Shown: one piece after another, positions 1,662 to 63,388 of the stretch | Numbering within the stretch: the first letter of the stretch is position 1 | How the letters are laid out: the number at the start of each line of letters is the position of its first letter | NCBI RefSeq assembly: GCF_001440415.1 | Contig: NZ_LLYA01000203.1 | Coordinates: 1 to 64,000 of the forward strand | From: Bradyrhizobium retamae | GTDB taxonomy: Bacteria; Pseudomonadota; Alphaproteobacteria; Rhizobiales; Xanthobacteraceae | Length of the DNA stretch: 64,000 bases | Direction: 5' to 3' | Notes under the pieces: generated by a model | Told to the model about the DNA's origin: nothing | Seen by the model: the letters and a program-made list of their open reading frames with translations, nothing else | Database searches by the model: none | Position numbers and translations under genes: made by a program

Positions 1662-3734
1662 ATGAAAAGACCGTCGCTCGGACAGGCGCTGCTCGCCCCG
1701 CGCAGCATCGCGCTCGTCGGCGCGTCCGACGACGTCTCGAAGACGTCGGCGCGTCCGCTGCGGTATCTGCGGAGCGCCGGATACGAAGGCACGATCTATC
1801 CGATCAATCCGCGTCGCGCGACGGTCCTGGGCGAACAGGCATGGCCGTCGCTGGCCGACCTGCCGTCGGCGCCGGACCACGCCTTCATCCTGACGCCCAC
1901 CGAGGGAGTGATGGAAGCCGCTTCCGAATGCGCGCGCCTCGGCGTGCCGGTGGCGACGATCCTGGCCTCTGGTTTCTCGGAAGGTGGCGAAGAGGGGCTG
2001 AGGCTGGTGGCCGAGCTGCAGAAACTCTGCGCGGAGACCGGGATGCGAATTCTCGGACCATCCAGCCTCGGCGCCATCAACCTGCGCCACAAGACCATCA
2101 TCACGGCCAACGCCGCGTTCGCCGAGCCCGACCCGCCGACCGGCGGCATCTTCGTCGCGTCGCACAGCGGAAGCCTGCTCGGAGCCCTGATCTCGCGCGG
2201 CAAGACCCGCAATGTCGGCTTCGCCGGGCTCGTCTCCGTCGGCAACGAGATCGACCTGTCTCTCGGAGAAATCTGTTCGGCGACGCTCGATGATCCCGAG
2301 ATCACGGGCTACATACTGTTCCTCGAGAGCATCCGTCATGCACGGGATCTCCGGACCTTCGCGCTCGCCGCCGCCGAACGCGGCAAACCGGTCGTCGCCT
2401 ACAAGCTCGGCCGTTCCGACGCCGCCGCCGAACTCGCGCTGTCGCACACCGGCGCCCTTGCCGGCGAAGACGATGTCGCTGCCGCCTTCCTGGCCGACTG
2501 CGGCATCGCGCGCGTGTTCAATTTCGAGACCCTCCTCGAAACCCTGCCGCTGCTGCAGCGCATGCCCGCGCGCGTAGCGGGCGCTCGCAGCAAGCGCGTT
2601 GGTGTCGTCACAACGACCGGGGGCGGGGCGGCCATGGTCGTGGACGAGCTTTCGGTGCGCGGCATCGATGTCGTGAAGCCGAGCGACGAGACGTTTGAGC
2701 GGCTCGCCGCGGCGGGCGTCAAGGCCAACCATGAACGCATCACGGACCTCACGCTGGCGGGGACGCGCTACGACATCATGAAGGCCTCGCTGGACATCAT
2801 GCTGTCCGCGCCGGAATTCGACATCGTGGTCGCGGTCATCGGCTCGTCGGCGCGTTTCAAACCCGAGCTCGCCGTGAAGCCCGCCATCGACAGCGCCGCT
2901 TCGTCTAAGCCGTTGGTGACGTTCCTGGTGCCGGACGCTCCAAGTGCGCTGGCCATGCTTACGGCCGCTGGCGTGCCGAACTTCCGGACGCCGGAATCCT
3001 GCGCCGACGCTGTCGCTGCCGCGCTGCTGCGGCGCCGGCCGGTGATCGCATCGACCACGCGGCACGATACGACTGTCGCGGCGACCCGGCAGTTGGACGA
3101 ACTCGCGGCATACGAACTTTTCGAGAAGGTGGGTGTGCCGCACGCGCCGGCTGTGGCGGTCGCGGTGGATGCGGTCACGATCACGCTGCCTTTCGCGTAT
3201 CCCGTAGCCGTCAAGCTTCTTTCCGCGGAGATCGCCCACAAGACCGAGGTCGGCGGAGTGATCCTCAACGTCCGAACCGAGGCCGAACTCAAGGCGGCGG
3301 TGACCAAGATCTCGGACAACGTGAGGTCGCATCGCCCCGACGCGCAGGTGTCGAAGGTGCTCGTACAGCCGATGACTTCGGGTCTCGGCGAGATGCTGCT
3401 GGGTTACCGCGTCGATCCGGAGGCCGGTCCGATGGTCCTGCTCGCCGCCGGCGGCATCTACACGGAGATCTACCGCGATCGCAGCATCCGGCTCGCGCCT
3501 GTCGACGTGGATGGGGCCCGGAGCATGATCTCCGAGTTGTCGATCACGAAGGTCTTCCAGGGCTTCCGGAACAAGCCTCATGGGGACCTGGAGGCGCTCG
3601 CGCATGCCATCGTCGCGATGTCGCAGCTTGCGCATGAGAGCACGGTCGTGGTGGATGCCGAGATCAATCCACTGATCATAAATCGGGTGGGCGAGGGCGT
3701 CGTCGCGGTCGACGCGCTGATCGCGATAGCCTGA
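1662..3734 (+). CDS. ADP-forming acyl-CoA synthetase (acetyl-CoA synthetase-like, fused subunits)
   Basis: Makes an acyl-CoA from an acid, ATP and CoA through a phospho-His intermediate; family knowledge, substrate not readable. The product is 690 residues. It has an N-terminal CoA-binding Rossmann domain (LLAPRSIALVGASDD), succinyl-CoA-ligase-like domains carrying the phospho-His motif SHTGALAGEDDVAAAF, and a C-terminal ATP-grasp domain (FEKVGVPHAP; AVKLLSAEIAHKTEVGGV). The ATG at 1662 is preferred; a GTG at 1635 would overlap the preceding gene by 26 nt. Its position directly behind the acyl-CoA dehydrogenase suggests it supplies the dehydrogenase's CoA thioester. Members of this architecture also act on phenylacetate-, pimelate- or feruloyl-type acids, so the exact acid is open. 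Confidence 0.88.
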   Translation: MKRPSLGQALLAPRSIALVGASDDVSKTSARPLRYLRSAGYEGTIYPINPRRATVLGEQAWPSLADLPSAPDHAFILTPTEGVMEAASECARLGVPVATILASGFSEGGEEGLRLVAELQKLCAETGMRILGPSSLGAINLRHKTIITANAAFAEPDPPTGGIFVASHSGSLLGALISRGKTRNVGFAGLVSVGNEIDLSLGEICSATLDDPEITGYILFLESIRHARDLRTFALAAAERGKPVVAYKLGRSDAAAELALSHTGALAGEDDVAAAFLADCGIARVFNFETLLETLPLLQRMPARVAGARSKRVGVVTTTGGGAAMVVDELSVRGIDVVKPSDETFERLAAAGVKANHERITDLTLAGTRYDIMKASLDIMLSAPEFDIVVAVIGSSARFKPELAVKPAIDSAASSKPLVTFLVPDAPSALAMLTAAGVPNFRTPESCADAVAAALLRRRPVIASTTRHDTTVAATRQLDELAAYELFEKVGVPHAPAVAVAVDAVTITLPFAYPVAVKLLSAEIAHKTEVGGVILNVRTEAELKAAVTKISDNVRSHRPDAQVSKVLVQPMTSGLGEMLLGYRVDPEAGPMVLLAAGGIYTEIYRDRSIRLAPVDVDGARSMISELSITKVFQGFRNKPHGDLEALAHAIVAMSQLAHESTVVVDAEINPLIINRVGEGVVAVDALIAIA

Positions 3735-3748
3735 AGGGAGAAGACGCC

Positions 3749-4111
3749 ATGATCGAAGTCCTGAAGAACAAGGTCAATGCCGACGAGACGCTAGTGAGAC
3801 GCGGTCGATGGCTGTCGACTACGTTTCTGCTGGAGGTGGGCACGACGGCCTGGCTTATCAACATCGTCGAAGGCCGGGTCGTGTCGATCGTGAAGGGACC
3901 GTTCGTCATGCCGTCCTGGACCTTCGCGCTGCGCGCTTCGGAGGACGAGTGGACGAAGTTCTGGAGTCCGCCTCGGCCGGGCTCGCACGATCTGATGGCG
4001 CTGATCAAGCGTCGCGTTCTGAAGGCCGAGGGCGACCTCCAGCCGTTCATGGCCAATCTCAGGTACTTCAAGGAAGCGCTTGTCAAGCTGCGCAAGGGAG
4101 AGGCCGCATGA
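3749..4111 (+). CDS. SCP2-like sterol-binding domain protein
   Basis: A 120-residue single-domain protein that resembles the SCP2 fold: a beta-rich N-terminal half (WLINIVEGRVVSIVKGPFV) and a C-terminal helical part with the typical ending LKAEGDLQPFMANLRYFKEAL. Such domains bind lipids or acyl-CoA in a hydrophobic tunnel and are not catalytic. A good ribosome-binding site (gggag) precedes the ATG, and the stop overlaps the start of the next gene (ATGA), so translation is probably coupled. Within cluster A it may carry or present a hydrophobic substrate or acyl-CoA. The family assignment rests on sequence pattern alone. Confidence 0.68.
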   Translation: MIEVLKNKVNADETLVRRGRWLSTTFLLEVGTTAWLINIVEGRVVSIVKGPFVMPSWTFALRASEDEWTKFWSPPRPGSHDLMALIKRRVLKAEGDLQPFMANLRYFKEALVKLRKGEAA

Positions 4112-4950
4112 GCCCCCGTTTCGAACCCACCATCGGCCGCTATCTCCACCTCGAACTGTTCGAGCGCGAGCACCGCATCTACGTCGAGGAGGCCGGTCAG
4201 GGCACGCCGTTGCTGTGCCTGCACACCGCAGGCGCCGACGGGCGGCAGTACCGCGCGCTGATGAACGACGAGCGCGTCACGTTGAAGCACCGCGTCATCG
4301 CTTTCGACATGCCCTGGCACGGCAAATCATCGCCACCGGTCGGATGGCACAACGAGGAATACCGGCTCACGTCGGCTCAGTTCACGACCATGATCCTCGA
4401 AGTCATGACCGCGCTCGAGCTCGACAAGCCGATCGTGATGGGCTGCTCGATCGGTGGCCGCATCGTCCTGCATCTTGCGCTGGAGCATCCGGAGCGCTTC
4501 CGCGCCATCATCGGCCTGCAGGCCGGCGCCCACGTCGACCCGTACTACGACCTGAACTTCCTGCACCGGCCGGACGTGCACGGCGGCGAGACTTGTGCTG
4601 CGATCGTGTCGGGCCTCGTCGGACCTGACGCATCTGACGCGCACCGTTGGGAGACGCTCTGGCACTACATGCAGGGCGGTCCCGGCGTGTTCAAGGGCGA
4701 CCTCTACTTCTACAAGGTCGACGGGGACATCCGCGCCCGGGTGGCGCAGATCGACACGTCGAAGTGCCCGCTATTCCTGTTGTCCGGCGAGTACGACTAC
4801 TCCTGCGCGCCTGAGGAGACGCTCGCCGTCGCCAACAGCGTCAAGGGCAGCCACGTCACCATCATGAAGGATCTCGGCCATTTTCCGATGAGCGAGGATC
4901 CCGACAAGTTTCTGAGCCACCTTCTTCCGGTGCTCGAGAAGATCAACTGA
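4108..4950 (+). CDS. alpha/beta hydrolase
   Basis: A 280-residue alpha/beta-hydrolase with the oxyanion region LLCLHTAGADG, a nucleophile elbow GCSIGG (Ser114), Asp230 in SGEYD and His258 in DLGHF, so the catalytic triad is complete. The family includes ring-cleavage product hydrolases, lactonases and esterases; the sequence does not say which. The reading frame is open upstream to 3808, but the ATG at 4108 overlapping the preceding stop by four bases is the sensible start. Its place in an operon with an acyl-CoA synthetase, a dehydrogenase and an uptake protein fits hydrolysis of an ester or lactone, or C-C bond cleavage, in a catabolic route. Confidence 0.88.
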   Translation: MSPRFEPTIGRYLHLELFEREHRIYVEEAGQGTPLLCLHTAGADGRQYRALMNDERVTLKHRVIAFDMPWHGKSSPPVGWHNEEYRLTSAQFTTMILEVMTALELDKPIVMGCSIGGRIVLHLALEHPERFRAIIGLQAGAHVDPYYDLNFLHRPDVHGGETCAAIVSGLVGPDASDAHRWETLWHYMQGGPGVFKGDLYFYKVDGDIRARVAQIDTSKCPLFLLSGEYDYSCAPEETLAVANSVKGSHVTIMKDLGHFPMSEDPDKFLSHLLPVLEKIN

Positions 4951-4986
4951 ACCAAACTTAACAACAAATCGAAAGGGAAAACGCGC

Positions 4987-6201
4987 ATGAAGATCAACAA
5001 GTTGCTAGTCACCGCCGCGGTGCTGTCGTTTGTGACGGCCGCTTCAGCTGAGATCTCCAACGGCACTGTCAAGATCGGCGTGCTCACGGATATGTCCGGC
5101 CCCTATGCCGACAATGTCGGTCCTGGTTCGGTTCTGGCTGCGAAGATGGCGGTCGAGGACTACGGTGGGAAGGTCGCTGGAATGCCGATCGAGGTGATCT
5201 CGGCCGACCACCAGAACAAGGCGGATATCGGCCTTGCTTTGGCGCGCAAGTGGTACGACACCGAAGGCGTCGACGCGATCACCGAAGTTGTCTCGTCGGG
5301 CGTCGCGCTGGCGGTGCAGCAGCTGTCGCGGGAAAAGGACAAGGTGCTTCTGGCAACCGGCCCCGGCACGCCCGATCTCACCGGCAAAGCCTGCTCGCCC
5401 AACGGCGTGCACTGGGCATACGACAACTACGCGCTCGCCAACGTCGCGACCGCGCCGCTTGTCCAGAAAAGTCTCAAGAGCTGGTACTTCCTGACTGCGG
5501 ATTACAGTTTCGGTTTGGCTCTGGAATCCGAGGCGGCCAAGGTCGTAATCGCCAACGGCGGGAAGGTGCTCGGCTCGTCGAAACATCCGCTGAATACGTC
5601 GGACTTCTCGTCGTTCCTTTTGCAGGCGCAGGCGTCCAAGGCCCAGGTCGTCGGCCTCGCGAATGCCGGCGCCGACATGATGACCGCCTTGAAGCAGGCC
5701 AACGAGTTCGGGCTCACCGCCGGAGGGCAAAGCATAGCCGCCTTGCTGGTGAATCTTCCGGATGTCCACGCGCTCGGCCTCGGCAGCGCCAAGGACCTGA
5801 TGTTCGCCGACAGCTTCTACTGGGACGCCAACGACAAGACCCGCGAATGGAGCAAGCGCTTCATGGCCCGTTTCAACGGCAAGGCGCCGGGCAGCCTCCA
5901 GGCTGCGGTCTACGGCGCGGTGACGCACTACCTGAAGGCCGTCGAAGCTACCAAGAGCGACGTCGGTTCGGTTGTCGTTCCGGAAATGAAGAAGCTACCG
6001 ATCAACGACTTCTACTCGGCCAACGCTTCCATCCGAGAGGACGGGCGGGTCATCCGCGACATGTACCTGCTGCAGGTCAAGCAGCCCTCGGAGTCCAAGT
6101 ATCCTTGGGACTACTACAAGATCCTTGACACCATTGCTGGTGAAAAGGCGTTTCGGCCCCTCAAGGACGGCAACTGCCCCTTCGTCAGCGCCGCCAAGTA
6201 G
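4987..6201 (+). CDS. periplasmic ABC transporter substrate-binding protein (branched-chain amino acid type)
   Basis: A 404-residue type 1 periplasmic binding protein. A Sec signal peptide (MKINKLLVTAAVLSFVTAASA) is followed by the ligand-binding fold (KIGVLTDMSGPYAD; SADHQNKADIG; YFLTADYSFG; YGAVTHYLKAVEA). Members bind branched-chain amino acids, amides or aromatic and aliphatic acids outside the inner membrane. No permease or ATPase gene is nearby, so it must use components encoded elsewhere. A strong ribosome-binding site (aaaggg) lies before the ATG, and a good intrinsic terminator follows at 6228-6255. It is closely related to the protein at 8791-10002. Its place in cluster A suggests that it imports that pathway's substrate. 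Confidence 0.92.
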   Translation: MKINKLLVTAAVLSFVTAASAEISNGTVKIGVLTDMSGPYADNVGPGSVLAAKMAVEDYGGKVAGMPIEVISADHQNKADIGLALARKWYDTEGVDAITEVVSSGVALAVQQLSREKDKVLLATGPGTPDLTGKACSPNGVHWAYDNYALANVATAPLVQKSLKSWYFLTADYSFGLALESEAAKVVIANGGKVLGSSKHPLNTSDFSSFLLQAQASKAQVVGLANAGADMMTALKQANEFGLTAGGQSIAALLVNLPDVHALGLGSAKDLMFADSFYWDANDKTREWSKRFMARFNGKAPGSLQAAVYGAVTHYLKAVEATKSDVGSVVVPEMKKLPINDFYSANASIREDGRVIRDMYLLQVKQPSESKYPWDYYKILDTIAGEKAFRPLKDGNCPFVSAAK

Positions 6202-6275: not shown

Positions 6276-7715
6276 GTGATCGACTATCCTGCGCTCAGGC
6301 TTTTCATAGACGGTAAGTGGCGGACGGGCGAAGGCCGCGATACGCAGCCGGTCCTCAATCCGGCGACAGAAGCGGTACTCGGTGAACAGCCGCATGCCGG
6401 CGAGGCCGATCTCGACGAGGCTTTGGCGTCGTCCGCGCTTGGCTATGAGCAGTGGCGGAAGGTGCCGCCGCTCGACCGCGGCCGGGTTCTTCTGAAAGCA
6501 GCGGCGTTGATCCGGGAACGCAGCGATCATATCGCTGGACTAATCACGCTGGAGCTCGGTAAACCGATTGCCGAATCTCGCCTCGAGGTTGAGACGGCCG
6601 CCGGGATGTTCGACTGGAACGCGGAGGAGGGCCGTAGGGCCTATGGTCGCGTGATTCCTTCGCGCAATCGCTCTATCCAGCAGATTGCGGTGCGCGAGCC
6701 GCTGGGTCCGATCGCAGCGTTCGCACCCTGGAACGCTCCGGCGATCACTCCCGCCCGCAAGATTTCGAGCGCGCTGGCGGCCGGTTGCTCCGTCATCATC
6801 AAGCCTGCCGAAGAGACCCCGGCGACGGTGCTCGCCCTAGCCGAAGCTCTCGCGGATGCAGGCTTGCCAACCGGCGTGCTCAACGTCGTGTTCGGCAATC
6901 CCGCACTAGTGTCTGGTAAGCTGCTGGAATCTCCGATCACCCGCGGGTTGACTTTCACGGGCTCCACCCAAGTCGGCAAGCAACTCGGTGCGCTCGCCGT
7001 GCAGACGATGAAGAAGATGACGCTCGAACTCGGCGGACACGCGCCAGTGCTCGTGTTCGGCGATGTCGATCCGGAGGCCGCCGCTGCCTCGGCGGTGGCG
7101 GCTAAATTTCGCAATTCCGGCCAGGTCTGCACGTCGCCGACGCGTTTCTTCGTGCATGATTCGATCCACGACCGGTTCGCCGCGAAGCTCTCGGAACTCG
7201 CCGACAAGATCGTCGTCGGCGACGGTTTCGATGCGGCCGCTGAGATGGGTCCGTTGGCGCATGCGCGGCGCGTGGAATCCATAGAGCGCTTCGTCGAGGA
7301 TGCGCGGACGCGCAACATAGCGGTGTCGGCGGGCGGCGAACGGTGCGGCAACCGGGGCTTCTTCTACCGCCCGACGGTGCTGTCGAACGCCGACGACGAC
7401 TGTATGGCGTCCAACGTCGAGCCCTTCGGTCCGCTTGCGACCACCGCTCCGTTCTCGGGATTGGGCGACGCCATTAGACTCGCAAACAGGCTTCCTTTCG
7501 GTCTGGCGTCCTACGTGATGACCCATGACATGCGCAACGCTTCCGCGGTCTCCGAAGCGATCCAGAGCGGCAACGTCGTCGTCAACCATTGGCAGGCGTC
7601 ACTGCCGGAGACCCCCTTCGGCGGCTACAAGGACTCAGGGATCGGCTCCGAAGGCGGGATCGAGGGACTCCAGGAATTTCAGACCGTAAAGTACATCAGC
7701 CAGTCGGTGGCCTGA
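6276..7715 (+). CDS. NAD(P)-dependent aldehyde dehydrogenase (succinate-semialdehyde dehydrogenase-like)
   Basis: Oxidises an aldehyde to the acid. The product is 479 residues with the complete ALDH signature: Asn153 in PWNAP, the general base Glu251 in LELGGHAP, the catalytic Cys285 in NSGQVCTSP, and the cofactor motif FTGSTQVG. The start is GTG at 6276, chosen for the ggagga ribosome-binding site just upstream and for the family length. It lies behind a terminator, at the end of cluster A. It may oxidise an aldehyde produced by the alpha/beta hydrolase step, but that order is inference. Substrate specificity within the broad semialdehyde or aromatic aldehyde group cannot be read. Confidence 0.9.
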   Translation: MIDYPALRLFIDGKWRTGEGRDTQPVLNPATEAVLGEQPHAGEADLDEALASSALGYEQWRKVPPLDRGRVLLKAAALIRERSDHIAGLITLELGKPIAESRLEVETAAGMFDWNAEEGRRAYGRVIPSRNRSIQQIAVREPLGPIAAFAPWNAPAITPARKISSALAAGCSVIIKPAEETPATVLALAEALADAGLPTGVLNVVFGNPALVSGKLLESPITRGLTFTGSTQVGKQLGALAVQTMKKMTLELGGHAPVLVFGDVDPEAAAASAVAAKFRNSGQVCTSPTRFFVHDSIHDRFAAKLSELADKIVVGDGFDAAAEMGPLAHARRVESIERFVEDARTRNIAVSAGGERCGNRGFFYRPTVLSNADDDCMASNVEPFGPLATTAPFSGLGDAIRLANRLPFGLASYVMTHDMRNASAVSEAIQSGNVVVNHWQASLPETPFGGYKDSGIGSEGGIEGLQEFQTVKYISQSVA

Positions 7716-43146: not shown

Positions 43147-45522
43147 TTACGCCATCGCCCGCAGTTCGCGGGCGGCGGCCACCATGTTGGCGAGCGCGGG
43201 TCGGACCTCCTCCCATTTGCGGGTCTTCAGTCCGCAATCCGGATTGATCCAGATCTGGGTGTCGGAGAGCCGCTGTCGCGCCAGCTTGAGCAGGCCGGTC
43301 ATCTCGCCGATCTCGGGGACGCGCGGCGAATGGATGTCGTAGACGCCGGGGCCGATTTCGTTCGGATAGCGGTAATCCCTGAACGCATCGAGCAGCTCCA
43401 TCTTCGAGCGCGAGGTCTCGATCGAGATCACGTCGGCGTCCATCGCGCCGATCGCGCCGATAATATCGTTGAACTCCGAGTAGCACATGTGGGTATGGAT
43501 CTGCGTTTCGTCGCGCACGCCGGACGAACAGAGGCGGAAGGCGTCGACGGCCCAGTCGAGATAGGCCTGCCATTCGGATTTGCGCAGCGGCAGGCCCTCC
43601 CGCAACGCGGCCTCGTCGATCTGGATCATGCCGGCGCCGGCCGCTTCGAGATCAGCGACCTCGTCGCGGATCGCGAGCGCGATCTGCCGGCAGGCTTCGC
43701 TGCGCGGAATGTCATCGCGGACGAATGACCAGTTCAGAATGGTGACGGGGCCGGTGAGCATCGCCTTCATCGGCTTTTTCGTCAGCGACTGGGCATATTG
43801 CCACCACTCGACCGTCATCGGCTTTGGGCGCGAGACGTCGCCGAACAGCACAGGCGGGCGAACGTAGCGCGATCCGTAGGATTGCACCCAGCCGTGCGCG
43901 GTGAAGGCAAAGCCTGCGAGCTGTTCGCCGAAATACTGCACCATGTCGTTGCGCTCGAACTCGCCATGCACGAGCACGTCGAGCCCGATATTTTCCTGCC
44001 AGCGCACGGTGCGGGCGGTCTGGTTCTGCAGATAGAGCTTATAGGCTTCGTCCGTCAGAGCGCCCCTGGCGTGCGCGGAGCGGGCGTTCCTGACGTCGGC
44101 GGTTTGTGGGAACGAGCCGATGGTGGTGGTCGGGAACGCCGGCAGGTTGAAGCGCTCGCGCTGAACGGTGGCGCGTTCAGCGAAGATGCTGGAGCGGAAG
44201 CGCATCGGTTCATTGACGCCGGCAACGCGTGCCGCGACCTTCGCATCGTGAATGCGCGGCGAGGCCTTGCGGGAGGTCGCCGCCCGGTCCGATGCCTTCA
44301 GGTTGGCTTCGACTGCTCTGCGGCCATCGGCGAGTGCCGTTCCGAGCGTGGCCAGTTCCTCGAGCTTCTGCACCGAAAACGCGAGCCAGCTCTTGATTTC
44401 GGGATCGAGCTCGGTCTCCAGCGCCAGATCGATCGGGACGTGCAGCAGCGAGCAGGAGGGGGCGATCTGCACACGATGCTTGCCGAGTTTGGCGATTGCG
44501 GGCTCGAGCCGGTCGAGAAGCCGGCTCAAATCCGCGCGCCAGATGTTACGGCCATCGATCATTCCGAGCGACAGCACGCGGTTATCAGGAACTCCGGCGA
44601 GGTCGTCGATCTGCTCCGGCGCGCGCACGAGGTCGAGATGCAGGCCGGCGACGGGCAGGGATAGCGCGGTGTCGCGGTTGGCGCCGAGACCGCCGAAATA
44701 GGTCGTCAGCATGATCTTGAGCTGCGGCACTGCGCTCGCGATCTCCGCATAGGCATAATGCAACGCCTGCTGGGCGACGATATCGAGGTCGAGCACGAGA
44801 CATGGCTCGTCGATCTGCACCCATTCCGCGCCCCGGTAGGCAAGTTCGCGCAGCACCTCGATGTAAACCGGCAGCAAGCGATCAAGCAGGGACAGCGGAT
44901 TGAAGCCGGCATCCTTGCTCTTGGCGAGTTTGAGAAACGTGACCGGCCCGACCAGCACGGGGCGGGTTTGATAGCCCAGCGCCTTGGCTTCCTCGTATTC
45001 CTCGATCGGCTTGCGTGAGGCGAGGATGAATTTCTGATCCTTCGTCAGTTCGGGCACCATGTAGTGGTAGTTGGTGTCGAACCATTTTGTCATTTCCAGC
45101 GCCGGCACGCCGTGCGCATCGTCATGCCCGTGACTGGCATGGCCGCAACTCGCCTCATGCGGCTTGCCTTGCGCGCCGCGGGCCATCGCGAAGTAAGTCG
45201 CAAGCGAGACCGGCCCGCCGTTCCAGCGATAGATTTCCGGGATTGCGCCGACCATCACGGATGTGTCGAGCACCTGGTCGTAGAACGAGAAATCGTTCGA
45301 CGGAATCACGGTGACGCCGAGCTTTTTCTGGCGCGCCCAGTTTGCGGCGCGAAGCCCGACGCCGGCTTCGATCAGCGCCTTCTCGTCGGTTGCGCCCGAC
45401 CAGAAACTCTCCAGCGCGAATTTCAACTCACGGCGCGGACCGATGCGCGGCGTGCCGAGTGAAGCAACGCGAAGTGAAGAAGTGGAGATGGTGGAAGTAG
45501 ACGTAGCTTTGGAAGAAGACAT
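43147..45522 (-). CDS. metE: cobalamin-independent methionine synthase MetE
   Basis: A 791-residue enzyme that transfers the methyl group of 5-methyltetrahydropteroyltri-glutamate to homocysteine. The N-terminal and C-terminal barrels are both present. Zinc ligand motifs are HTHMCYSEF and, near the C terminus, INPDCGLKTRKW. GPVTILNWSFVRDD and QIDEAALREGLPL are strongly conserved family segments. The ATG at 45522 is chosen, as the extension to 45564 has no homology. A cobalamin riboswitch lies upstream at 45646-45825, so it should be made when B12 is scarce, replacing B12-dependent MetH. Confidence 0.96.
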   Translation of the reverse strand: MSSSKATSTSTISTSSLRVASLGTPRIGPRRELKFALESFWSGATDEKALIEAGVGLRAANWARQKKLGVTVIPSNDFSFYDQVLDTSVMVGAIPEIYRWNGGPVSLATYFAMARGAQGKPHEASCGHASHGHDDAHGVPALEMTKWFDTNYHYMVPELTKDQKFILASRKPIEEYEEAKALGYQTRPVLVGPVTFLKLAKSKDAGFNPLSLLDRLLPVYIEVLRELAYRGAEWVQIDEPCLVLDLDIVAQQALHYAYAEIASAVPQLKIMLTTYFGGLGANRDTALSLPVAGLHLDLVRAPEQIDDLAGVPDNRVLSLGMIDGRNIWRADLSRLLDRLEPAIAKLGKHRVQIAPSCSLLHVPIDLALETELDPEIKSWLAFSVQKLEELATLGTALADGRRAVEANLKASDRAATSRKASPRIHDAKVAARVAGVNEPMRFRSSIFAERATVQRERFNLPAFPTTTIGSFPQTADVRNARSAHARGALTDEAYKLYLQNQTARTVRWQENIGLDVLVHGEFERNDMVQYFGEQLAGFAFTAHGWVQSYGSRYVRPPVLFGDVSRPKPMTVEWWQYAQSLTKKPMKAMLTGPVTILNWSFVRDDIPRSEACRQIALAIRDEVADLEAAGAGMIQIDEAALREGLPLRKSEWQAYLDWAVDAFRLCSSGVRDETQIHTHMCYSEFNDIIGAIGAMDADVISIETSRSKMELLDAFRDYRYPNEIGPGVYDIHSPRVPEIGEMTGLLKLARQRLSDTQIWINPDCGLKTRKWEEVRPALANMVAAARELRAMA

Positions 45523-45616
45523 TGGCTTAACCCCAAAAGTTGGGGGCAAAGGCCGAAGTGACACGTCTGGATTTTCGCGAACGGCAGAGCGCGCGCGGAA
45601 AATCGCAACCGCACCA

Positions 45617-45640
45617 CCGGGACACCCCGCCCGTGGACGT
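45617..45640 (-). repeat. 24-nt element shared with the nrdA leader (metE side)
   Basis: In the metE leader the minus strand carries ACGTCCACGGGCGGGGTGTC followed by CCGG, identical to 46200-46223 in the nrdA leader. It can fold as a hairpin (CCACGGG with CCCGGTGG, one bulged G). Its position just after each aptamer suggests a shared part of the expression platform. Confidence 0.7.
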
Positions 45641-45645
45641 GTATG

Positions 45646-45825
45646 TTGTCGAGGCAGGTCTCCTGGCTCGCGGGTCAGTGCTGCTGTCCGGCCTTCCCGA
45701 AACCTCGTGAGGTCTCAGTGGCTTTGTTGGACAGCGCTCGCCGCTTACAGTTGCGGGGGCAGCTCCGGCTTTGGCTTTGCGGCCGCACCGGCTTCCCTCT
45801 TAGCTTCGGAAGAACGTCTCCCGAA
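45646..45825 (-). promoter_or_regulatory. cobalamin riboswitch upstream of metE
   Basis: Minus-strand hallmarks in order are GCTAAGAGGGAAGCCGGTG, the core GCTGCCCCCGCAACTGTAAG, CACTGA, the CGGGAAGG stretch, and the B12 box GCGAGCCAGGAGACCTGCC. The aptamer ends about 125 nt before the metE start. Adenosylcobalamin or a related form should switch metE off. Confidence 0.92.
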
Positions 45826-46025
45826 GAACCACGACGGGTCCACATATCGGCAACGCGGCAGGCGCGTCAACTCGGCGACATTCACCGGCGCGTTGTCATT
45901 GTTGTTCACAGCCGCGGGGTTCCGTCGCCGAAATTCTTGCACATCGCCCGCTCCCCCATTGACAGCCGCATCCGAATAACACCAGATATAGCCGTCACGG
46001 TCCGCCATGGCCCAACACATGGTGG

Positions 46026-46190
46026 CTAAGAGGGAAGCCGGTGTATCGCGCGAAAGCCGCGAAAATCCGGCGCTGCCCCCGCAACTGTAAGCAGTGAGTT
46101 GTTTCCGAATCTTACGTCACTGATGCGGCATCGCATTGGGAAGACACGGGGATAATTGCGACCTGCGAGCCAGGAGACCTGCCGCGACAC
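46026..46190 (+). promoter_or_regulatory. cobalamin riboswitch upstream of nrdAB
   Basis: Plus-strand hallmarks are GCTAAGAGGGAAGCCGGTG, GCTGCCCCCGCAACTGTAAG, GTCACTGATGCGG, TTGGGAAGAC and the B12 box GCGAGCCAGGAGACCTGCC. The aptamer ends about 126 nt before the nrdA ATG. Two of these blocks are identical to those of the metE riboswitch. It should repress the oxygen-dependent reductase when B12 is available. Confidence 0.93.
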
Positions 46191-46199
46191 CGAAAAAAA

Positions 46200-46223
46200 A
46201 CGTCCACGGGCGGGGTGTCCCGG
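46200..46223 (+). repeat. 24-nt element shared with the metE leader (nrdA side)
   Basis: ACGTCCACGGGCGGGGTGTC then CCGG, identical to the minus-strand copy at 45617-45640. It follows an A8 run just behind the aptamer. A hairpin CCACGGG / CCCGGGGG is possible. Confidence 0.7.
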
Positions 46224-46315
46224 GGGCGCTTGCAGATTCATGCCCGCGTTTTCGCGTGGGCTAAAGCTGTAGCGTCCTCTGACATCCGGCCCCAACACCA
46301 TTACGGGGTCTTTTG

Positions 46316-49219
<2,904 letters not shown>

Positions 49220-49244: not shown

Positions 49245-50375
49245 ATGCTCGACTGGTCCGAACCATCCGCATCCCCGCGTCAGACGCCGCCGCCCGTCGT
49301 GGTGCAATCCGTTGCCCCGGCCGAACAAACCGGCCTCGGCATGATAGATCGTCGCGGCGGACGCGTATCTGTCGACGACAAGCGGATGATCAACTGCCGC
49401 GCCGACGTCAATCAATTGCTGCCGCTGAAGTACAAATGGGCCTGGGAGAAATATCTCGCCGGTTGCAACAATCACTGGATGCCTACCGAAGTTTCTATGC
49501 AGGCCGACATCGCGCTGTGGAAATCGCGCGATGGGCTGACGGAAGACGAGCGCCGCGCCATCAAGCGCAACCTTGGTTTCTTCGCGGCCTCCGAAAGCCT
49601 GGTCGCCAATAACATCGTGCTGGCGATCTACCGCCATCTGACCAATCCGGAGTGCCGGCAATATCTGCTGCGGCAATCGTTCGAGGAGGCGGTTCATACC
49701 CACACCTTTCAATATATCGTCGAAAGCTTAGGGTTGGACGAGGGCGAGCTGTTCAACATGTATCGCGAGGTGCCGTCGATTACCGACAAAGCAGCCTGGG
49801 CGCTGAAGCACACGCAGCATCTCGACGATCCCGATTTCAAGACCGGGACGCCGCAAGCCGACCAGGCGTTCCTGCGCGATCTCGTCGCCTTCTACGTCAT
49901 CTTCGAGGGGATGTGGTTCTACACGGGCTTCGCGCAGATCCTCTCGCTCGGCCGCCGCAACAAGATGGTCGGCATTGCCGAGCAGTACCAGTACATCCTG
50001 CGCGACGAGTCCATTCACCTGAATTTCGGCATCGATGTCATCAACCAGATCAAGATCGAAAACCCGCATCTATGGACCAAGGCGTTCCAGGACGAAGTCC
50101 GCGCCATGGTGCGCGAGGCGGCCGAGCTGGAAGCGGCCTACGGGCGAGACACCATGCCGCGCGGCTTTCTCGGGCTGAATGCGGCGCTGTGCGAGAGCTA
50201 CATGCACTTCATTGCCAACCGCCGCTGCGCGCAGCTCGGGCTGCAGCGGGTGTTCGACGAGACCGAGAATCCGTTTCCCTGGATGTCGGAAGCGATGGAC
50301 CTGAAGAAAGAGAAGAATTTCTTCGAGACGCGGGTGATCGAGTACCAGAACGGCGGTGCGCTGAGTTGGGAGTAG
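49245..50375 (+). CDS. nrdB: ribonucleoside-diphosphate reductase small subunit, class Ic-like
   Basis: A 376-residue ferritin-like radical subunit. Ligand motifs are E82 in [10 protein letters not shown]148 and H151 in EEAVHTHTF, a further Glu in FEGMWFYTG, and [10 protein letters not shown]. At the position of the radical Tyr (E. coli Tyr122, four residues after the ligand His) this protein has Phe155. Phe there, together with a Glu as first ligand, is the known signature of class Ic proteins such as the Chlamydia R2, which use Mn(IV)/Fe(III) instead of a tyrosyl radical. The ATG at 49245 is 25 nt after the nrdA stop, with aaagga before it. It forms an operon with nrdA. Confidence 0.93.
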
Positions 50376-62803: not shown

Positions 62804-63388
62804 GCGGGCCACTCCGTGAATTGGTCCAATCCGACATCGCAGTTCGCTTGAACTGCCAGAGGGGCCCGGGCTTGGACACACTAGTTAGAAAGACGCAGTC
62901 AAACTGCGAAAAAACTCATCCCGTTATTCCGGTTAGGCAAAGAGCCTGACCAACTGGTCCGGCTCTATCAGAACGCAGAACACAGCGATGAGCTGCGCTC
63001 TCTTATTCAGATCAGGTGGTTCAGTAATCATGAAACGATCAAAATATCAAGACGTTCCCGCTGAGAGCTTCAATGCAAGGCTGCGCCGGAATCCCGGCAG
63101 TACCGAAAGGCCGGAGATTGGTTCAAGGAGCGCAGGGCGGATGCCGGTCGTCGTAGGCCGATCCTGGCGCGTGGCTGGCTCTGAACTTGCGCGTTCACCT
63201 CACAGGTCGAGAAGGATTCAGTCGCATTCCGATTGACAAGCGGAACTTGGTCCAACGAACTGGGTCTTGAACCGGCGGCGTTCGCTAGGCATCTGTTAAC
63301 GTACTGCGAGCCGGAAATGCACCGGCTGCTGTTCGGAGCCGAAAGCACCGCCACGCGAATTTGATCGTCACGCAATTTGAAAGTATTC
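62804..63388. other. gene-free stretch with two divergent promoters
   Basis: 585 bases without a supported gene. It is bounded by the divergent starts of the TerC and oligopeptidase genes. A short Arg/Ser-rich open frame (MKRSKYQDVPAESFNARLRR, ending 63236) exists but has no family match or ribosome-binding site. Confidence 0.4.

Follow-up and report, generated by a model that had tools for sequence, protein, structure and literature searches.

In Bradyrhizobium retamae, two cobalamin riboswitches lie back to back between metE and nrdAB, whose products are both B12-independent isozymes. This arrangement raises the question of whether the two sets of genes answer to one switch or to two. The window analysed here is the whole stretch of 64,000 nucleotides at positions 1 to 64,000 of contig NZ_LLYA01000203.1, and an initial annotation had suggested that the pair in it makes one locus into a shared switch for B12 starvation. 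The reading that we hold to be very probable is that metE and nrdAB are each served by a separate class-I OFF riboswitch acting mainly on translation, and that the two would be neighbours through a B12-bypass gene cluster and not through a shared switch.

Aptamers, genes and B12-dependent counterparts

The gene metE, coding for the B12-independent methionine synthase, occupies positions 43147-45522 of the minus strand, its start being taken as the ATG at 45522 (GTG at 45564 in the list of open reading frames). On the plus strand, nrdA, coding for class Ia ribonucleotide reductase alpha, extends from the ATG at 46316 to 49219 (TTG at 46313 in the list) and nrdB, coding for the beta protein, covers 49245-50375 with a likely ATG start (GTG at 49170 in the list). 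Pfam and curated families were searched, and all three products exceed the curated family cut-offs: TIGR01371 for MetE (1107.5 bits, cut-off 930), PRK07207 for NrdA (1724.3 bits, cut-off 965) and PRK07209 for NrdB (681.9 bits, cut-off 309). The initial annotation had named the genes as metE and nrdAB, and these gene calls are confirmed. The closest named relatives of NrdA belong to Bradyrhizobium strains.

Both strands of the window were compared with Rfam using cmscan, and each returned a match to RF00174. The nrdA aptamer lies at 45981-46200 of the plus strand (130 bits, E 2.1e-32) and the metE aptamer at 45636-45848 of the minus strand (127.8 bits, E 8.9e-32). Both cover the full model (1-189 of 189) and stand well above the gathering score of 31.5 bits. 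Divergent, full-length B12 aptamers on opposite strands had been recognized from the sequence alone, and they were rightly said to be close together; the distance given, about 200 bp, was too large, since the measured gap is a spacer of 132 bp (45849-45980). Across the whole genome, six RF00174 matches exceed the cut-off and one falls short of it. By our own arithmetic, about 3e-4 pairs would be expected by chance for two of six matches lying divergently within about 350 bp in 8.47 Mb. In the genus, 19 loci, the window counted, have a spacing of 284-309 nt from box to box, and this repetition shows that the back-to-back arrangement is not due to chance. Chance RF00174 matches are likewise ruled out by the scores and by the recurrence of the arrangement in the genus. 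At one further locus, L064, the box-to-box distance is 391.

The initial annotation had also supposed that B12-dependent counterparts of the two enzymes exist, and a search of the genome (8,466,225 bases in 235 contigs) found them. Genes for metH (1746.6 bits), nrdJ (2354.4 bits) and a methylmalonyl-type acyl-CoA mutase (911.1 bits) are present and free of internal stops, and cobN, in a single frame, scores 1064.4 bits with its neighbours. Both isozymes of each pair, MetH/MetE and NrdJ/NrdAB, are thus encoded in the same genome. Of the outcomes that the initial annotation named as refuting it, a lack of RF00174 matches and a lack of any B12-dependent isozyme are both ruled out. Since metH, nrdJ, the mutase and cobN are all there, the isozyme logic of the riboswitch pair is sound.

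Regulons of cobalamin riboswitches that include isozymes of B12-dependent enzymes were reportedly described by Rodionov in 2003. B12-free isozymes under B12 riboswitches have been described (PMC3766115, PMC2211319) and, as in the window, the riboswitch there sits on the B12-free isozyme while the B12-dependent one is also encoded. The consulted portions of these two papers differ in that they mention neither a divergent metE/nrdAB pair nor prp genes between riboswitches. Neither the divergent riboswitch pair nor a metE-prp-nrdAB cluster was found in the open-access literature searched. The parts are therefore known, namely B12 riboswitches on B12-free isozymes, and a report of their arrangement as a pair was not found in the consulted portions of that literature.

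Of the other four matches over the cut-off, three precede genes for a TonB-dependent receptor (L008, like btuB in position only), a CobW-domain protein (L010) and a CbiM-domain protein (L011), and one precedes a second, broken metE on contig C187 (L009). The last of these, a broken frame at 3083-5399 of its locus, still has a 127.6-bit riboswitch with P13. Contig C187 also carries BATS/radical-SAM, two aminotransferase, FixG, COX1 and P-type ATPase genes, a content that looks like that of symbiosis-linked regions. This copy resembles the metE with a cobalamin riboswitch reported, in the part of PMC7643969 consulted, from Mesorhizobium symbiosis islands, which is not a counterpart of the window locus. 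Second metE copies, broken or split, were found again in other genomes of the genus. Elsewhere in the window, a terC RNA (RF03067) lies at 62822-62877 of the minus strand (49.4 bits, gathering score 39.9).

Expression platforms and predicted mode of control

A common hairpin follows the 3' end of each aptamer. In the metE leader it reads CCACGGG-CGGGGUGU-CCCGGUGG, and the nrdA leader has a near match to it. From its place we infer that it corresponds to P13/L13, an assignment taken from descriptions of cobalamin riboswitches in PMC10653944 and PMC9600662. The putative P13/L13 hairpin spans 46204-46226 of the plus strand for nrdA, with L13 GGGG at 46212-46215, and 45614-45636 of the minus strand for metE, with L13 GGGG at 45625-45628; a role for both is suggested by PMC10653944. 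By sequence inspection, candidate kissing partners of L13 are the L5 CCCCC of the nrdA aptamer (46076-46080, plus strand) and that of the metE aptamer (45755-45759, minus strand). L5 CCCC and L13 GGGG occur in both leaders and are near-invariant, so covariation between them could not be counted.

Downstream of P13, both window leaders run for about 60-70 nt to a CCCC stretch, followed, a few bases ahead of the start codon, by a GGGG tract. A survey of leaders together with folding located the Shine-Dalgarno-like (SD) GGGG of nrdA at 46305-46308 of the plus strand and, on the minus strand, that of metE at 45531-45534 and its anti-SD CCCCC at 45542-45546. In the nrdA leader, folding assigns two roles to a switching strand, GACAUCCGGCCCC, at 46281-46293 of the plus strand: it pairs with P13/L13 in the ON model, and its GGCCCC (46288-46293) pairs with the SD tract in the OFF model. 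An SD-like tract and a start were callable in 110 of 112 leaders of relatives, and a C-rich complement lies upstream of the tract in most of 97 distinct leaders. P13/L13 is likewise found in most leaders. The SD hairpin beats 95% of its own shuffles in only 21 of these 97. When its flanks were swapped, 69 of 1000 swaps of the 3' arm reached the native total, which is weak covariation; for metE leaders alone the values (14.13 native, 14.33 swapped) go slightly in the opposite direction.

The predicted competition between L13 and the SD hairpin was examined by folding 99 distinct leaders (64 of nrdA, 35 of metE) from P13 to the start codon, the aptamer being left out. Mean openness of the SD tract was 0.171 in freely folding nrdA leaders, 0.024 with L13 barred from pairing and 0.151 with random blocks; the corresponding values for metE leaders were 0.082, 0.010 and 0.085. 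Blocking L13 lowered the openness by more than 0.05 in 37 of 64 nrdA leaders and 10 of 35 metE leaders, and raised it by more than 0.05 in two and none, respectively. The change is plain in the window's nrdA leader: in its free fold, the P13/L13 segments GGGC and GGGUGUC are paired with GACAUCC and GCCC, which precede the SD tract; with L13 blocked, GGCCCC closes on GGGGUC. In the window's metE leader the SD openness is 0.042 free, 0.013 with random blocks and 0.0005 with L13 blocked. The probability that L13 pairs downstream is 0.68 for nrdA and 0.22 for metE. As the SD tract of metE is nearly closed even when free and L13 pairing is weak, the ON state is weakly predicted there.

In direction these folds agree, clearly for nrdA and weakly for metE, with an OFF switch; the logic of L5-L13 kissing, P13 and an RBS hairpin is set out for cobalamin riboswitches in PMC10653944. 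With ligand bound, L13 of the P13 hairpin would kiss L5 in the aptamer, and a CCCC/GGGG hairpin would lock up the SD tract; in the ligand-free leader, the P13/L13 strand would instead take up the 5' arm of this hairpin, which leaves the tract free. When cobalamin is plentiful, metE and nrdAB would then be held down and MetH and NrdJ would do the work, and when B12 or cobalt is short, metE and nrdAB would be released. The exact pairing scheme is a model, which fits nrdA better than metE.

Known members of the family offer close parallels. Like class-I RF00174 riboswitches with P13/L13, the window leaders have a full aptamer, an L5 CCCC and an L13 GGGG and, like the translational members described in the consulted part of PMC10653944, a P13 and an SD hairpin. 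They differ from class I as a whole in that two copies stand back to back on divergent genes, and in that the P13/L13 sequence is common to metE and nrdA leaders in many Hyphomicrobiales loci. In Caulobacter crescentus, a metE leader with GGCGGGGTGTCC fused to mCherry gave high output without B12 and a concentration-dependent translational shut-off by B12, with a K1/2 of 0.062 nM (PMC6538847). Like the window leaders, that leader has the GGCGGGGTGTCC element and the boxes of the aptamer, and a hairpin is predicted ahead of its start. According to the consulted part of the same report, C. crescentus has B12 riboswitches on metE and btuB only, whereas in the window nrdAB has one too, adjoining metE. 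By this analogy, and with consistent folding, it is well supported that B12 would turn both window leaders off.

Control through transcription, by Rho or an intrinsic terminator and not at the SD tract, appears improbable as the main mode, though a component of this kind may contribute. It would accord with the stable hairpin that folding places between P13 and the SD tract in both window leaders, and with the broken second metE, in which a GC hairpin with a T5 behind it lies downstream of P13. A terminator scan, however, found one match against 1.1 expected, and this single match is not downstream of P13. The SD tract with its upstream complement in most leaders also argues for translation, as does the fact that the Caulobacter homologue was scored with translation reporters in the part of PMC6538847 consulted.

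The spacer and the history of the two riboswitches

Whether the two predicted translational switches form one device was judged from the spacer, from gene order in relatives and from a tree of riboswitches. The spacer was aligned in 13 compact loci, out of 29 with a measured spacing. TTGACA at 45959-45964 of the plus strand and TTGACG at 45865-45870 of the minus strand, the candidate -35 sites of nrdA and metE respectively, are identical in 13 of 13 aligned loci. They lie 88 bp apart and face outward. Their status as candidates comes from conservation, and a sigma-70 scan of the spacer found no match (0.1 expected). A conserved CACCAGATRTAG-like block at 45975-45992, at the 5' edge of the nrdA aptamer, is present in compact loci and has a similar form in loci with an island of prp genes. 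It could be a -10 region or an NrdR-type box.

A single bidirectional unit, in which the 132-bp spacer and both aptamers would make up one shared B12-starvation switch, is very improbable. The narrow range of spacing in the 19 genus loci and the conserved blocks within the spacer are what such a unit would lead one to expect. Against it, both aptamers are complete and each belongs to a separate transcript, and many relatives have the pair about 1-10 kb apart with both riboswitches retained. The order of the genes is even convergent in L085 and L195 and tandem in L107.

The tree comprised 74 riboswitches, those of 35 loci having both and four others of this genome; L049-L069, which are compact, are outside it, one genome is represented twice (as L078 and L096), and the bootstrap had yet to converge. 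Within it, a single clade (100/99, 26 rows) unites the nrdA riboswitches of the genus and its near kin and contains none of metE. The metE label requires 7 changes along the tree and the nrdA label 5, where shuffled labels require about 25. The mean identity of riboswitches from one locus is 0.679 and that of riboswitches from different loci 0.673; for metE riboswitches among themselves it is 0.767, and for nrdA riboswitches 0.735. A locus's two riboswitches have thus not evolved as one, which again speaks against a bidirectional unit.

The shared switch of the initial annotation is therefore unsupported: there are two complete aptamers with their platforms and two outward-facing -35-like sites, the nrdA riboswitches have their own clade with hardly any excess of identity within loci, and in relatives where the pair is split, convergent or tandem each gene retains its own riboswitch. 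The signal and the neighbourhood are common to metE and nrdAB, but each has a switch of its own.

That both riboswitches came from a recent inverted duplication here is likewise very improbable. In its favour are inverted repeats between the two leaders (81-100% complementary) and the clustering of both riboswitches of L191, from another genus. The repeats, however, are the conserved boxes and P13, and the nrdA clade and the near-equal identities within and across the 35 loci, in a tree that leaves out L049-L069, speak against it. For this genus, a duplication of that kind is unsupported by the tree. In L191 (G073) the metE and nrdA riboswitches are sisters (96/92), as if one had been copied from the other.

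Distribution and gene content of the proposed B12-bypass cluster

With two separate OFF riboswitches as the preferred reading, their proximity calls for another explanation. We propose that metE and nrdAB stand back to back because both are part of a cluster of B12-bypass genes, made up of metE, nrdAB and in some loci prpBCD, whose members would tend to co-occur. Class Ia NrdA of this type is found in 40 of 149 genomes of the family, and 36 of these 40 nrdA loci were examined. A riboswitch lies upstream of nrdA in 35 of the 36, in 30 by box regex and in five more by cmscan; at L182 neither method found one before nrdA. The regex missed the nrdA riboswitch in L180, L200, L201, L204, L209, L121 and L122, all of which cmscan detected. 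In 14 of the 36 family loci metE is within the examined stretch, divergent and upstream in 13 and convergent and downstream in one (L195).

Among 195 genomes of the genus, some of them incomplete assemblies, NrdA was counted in 51, MetE in 107 and PrpD in 18; the tallies were made by eye, and high-identity fragments and broken copies were scored as present. MetE is present in 45 of the 51 NrdA genomes and 62 of the 144 others (Fisher 6.5e-9), and PrpD in 14 of 51 and 4 of 144 (Fisher 2.1e-6), both tests ignoring kinship. This patchy distribution suggests in which strains methionine, DNA precursors or the use of propionate depend on B12.

Aestuariivirga (L119) and Geminicoccus (L129) have divergent pairs as well, with both RF00174 matches. 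Two metagenome-assembled genomes labelled Acidobacteriota have such pairs too, by cmscan: L121 with metE and nrdA, and L122 with nrdA on a contig that ends before any metE. The NrdA proteins of these two share 85.7% identity with one another and no more than 74% with any of eleven others compared, which argues against two separate contaminations. Three leaders examined from L121 and L122 lack the CGGGGUGU platform, and in the NrdA tree L121 groups with two family loci (91) on a long branch. Both loci may be of Acidobacteriota origin, a binning error being possible.

In 10 distinct loci, prpB, prpC and prpD lie between the two riboswitches, oriented toward metE: L078 (same genome as L096), L079, L080, L084, L088, L089, L097, L098, L099 and L192. 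A thioesterase accompanies prpBCD in nine of the 10, and a RamB-like regulator in these islands is oriented toward nrdA. Protein families were checked on L078 and L084. The 2-methylcitrate synthase (PRK12351, 686 bits, cut-off 550) and the methylisocitrate lyase (TIGR02317, 427 bits, cut-off 354) pass their cut-offs, and PrpD (NF042438, 901 bits, cut-off 950) and RamB (NF038139, 611 bits, cut-off 700) score below theirs. The 2-methylcitrate cycle is a B12-free route for propionate use, so the island loci collect B12-free counterparts of MetH, NrdJ and the mutase. The window has no prpBCD between its riboswitches, where there are 132 bp only, and a search of its genome for a PrpD ortholog gave a best match of E 1.6e-5, which is not taken as one. 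Direct control of the prp genes by a riboswitch of their own is unsupported in L096, where cmscan found the two flanking RF00174 matches and no other.

The state of the locus was mapped on an NrdA tree of 95 rows, built by a quick method with SH-aLRT only and with compact loci defined by a metE up to 1.5 kb away; 21 named loci (fragments, one duplicate genome, distant taxa) and rows of unknown state were dropped. On this tree 7 changes of the island state are required, and starred branches force 6 of these, so the island was gained and lost more than once. A possible though tentative reading is that the back-to-back pair is the compact, minimal form of a recurrent cassette made of metE, optional prpBCD with a RamB-like regulator, and nrdAB, whose repeated assembly or transfer would reflect that lineages acquire and lose independence from B12 as a package. 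Such a cassette would bring together, at one spot, B12-free replacements for as many as three B12 enzymes (MetH, methylmalonyl-CoA mutase and NrdJ), with different platform sequences in Hyphomicrobiales and in the Acidobacteriota-labelled genomes. The pair points to a concrete, testable cassette for life with or without B12, and so with or without cobalt, among the soil bacteria and plant symbionts of this genus. If the cassette is the unit of gain and loss, B12 dependence could largely be read from one locus.

Other elements were also seen between the riboswitches. At 3373-7590 of L086 (G168), a 1405-aa gene with an nSTAND1 NTPase and many WD40 repeats lies between them; as a guess, it is perhaps of a defence type that used the gap as a landing site. 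In L192, a third riboswitch (139.7 bits) lies at 6348-6551 of the minus strand, inside the G125 island between the regulator and nrdA.
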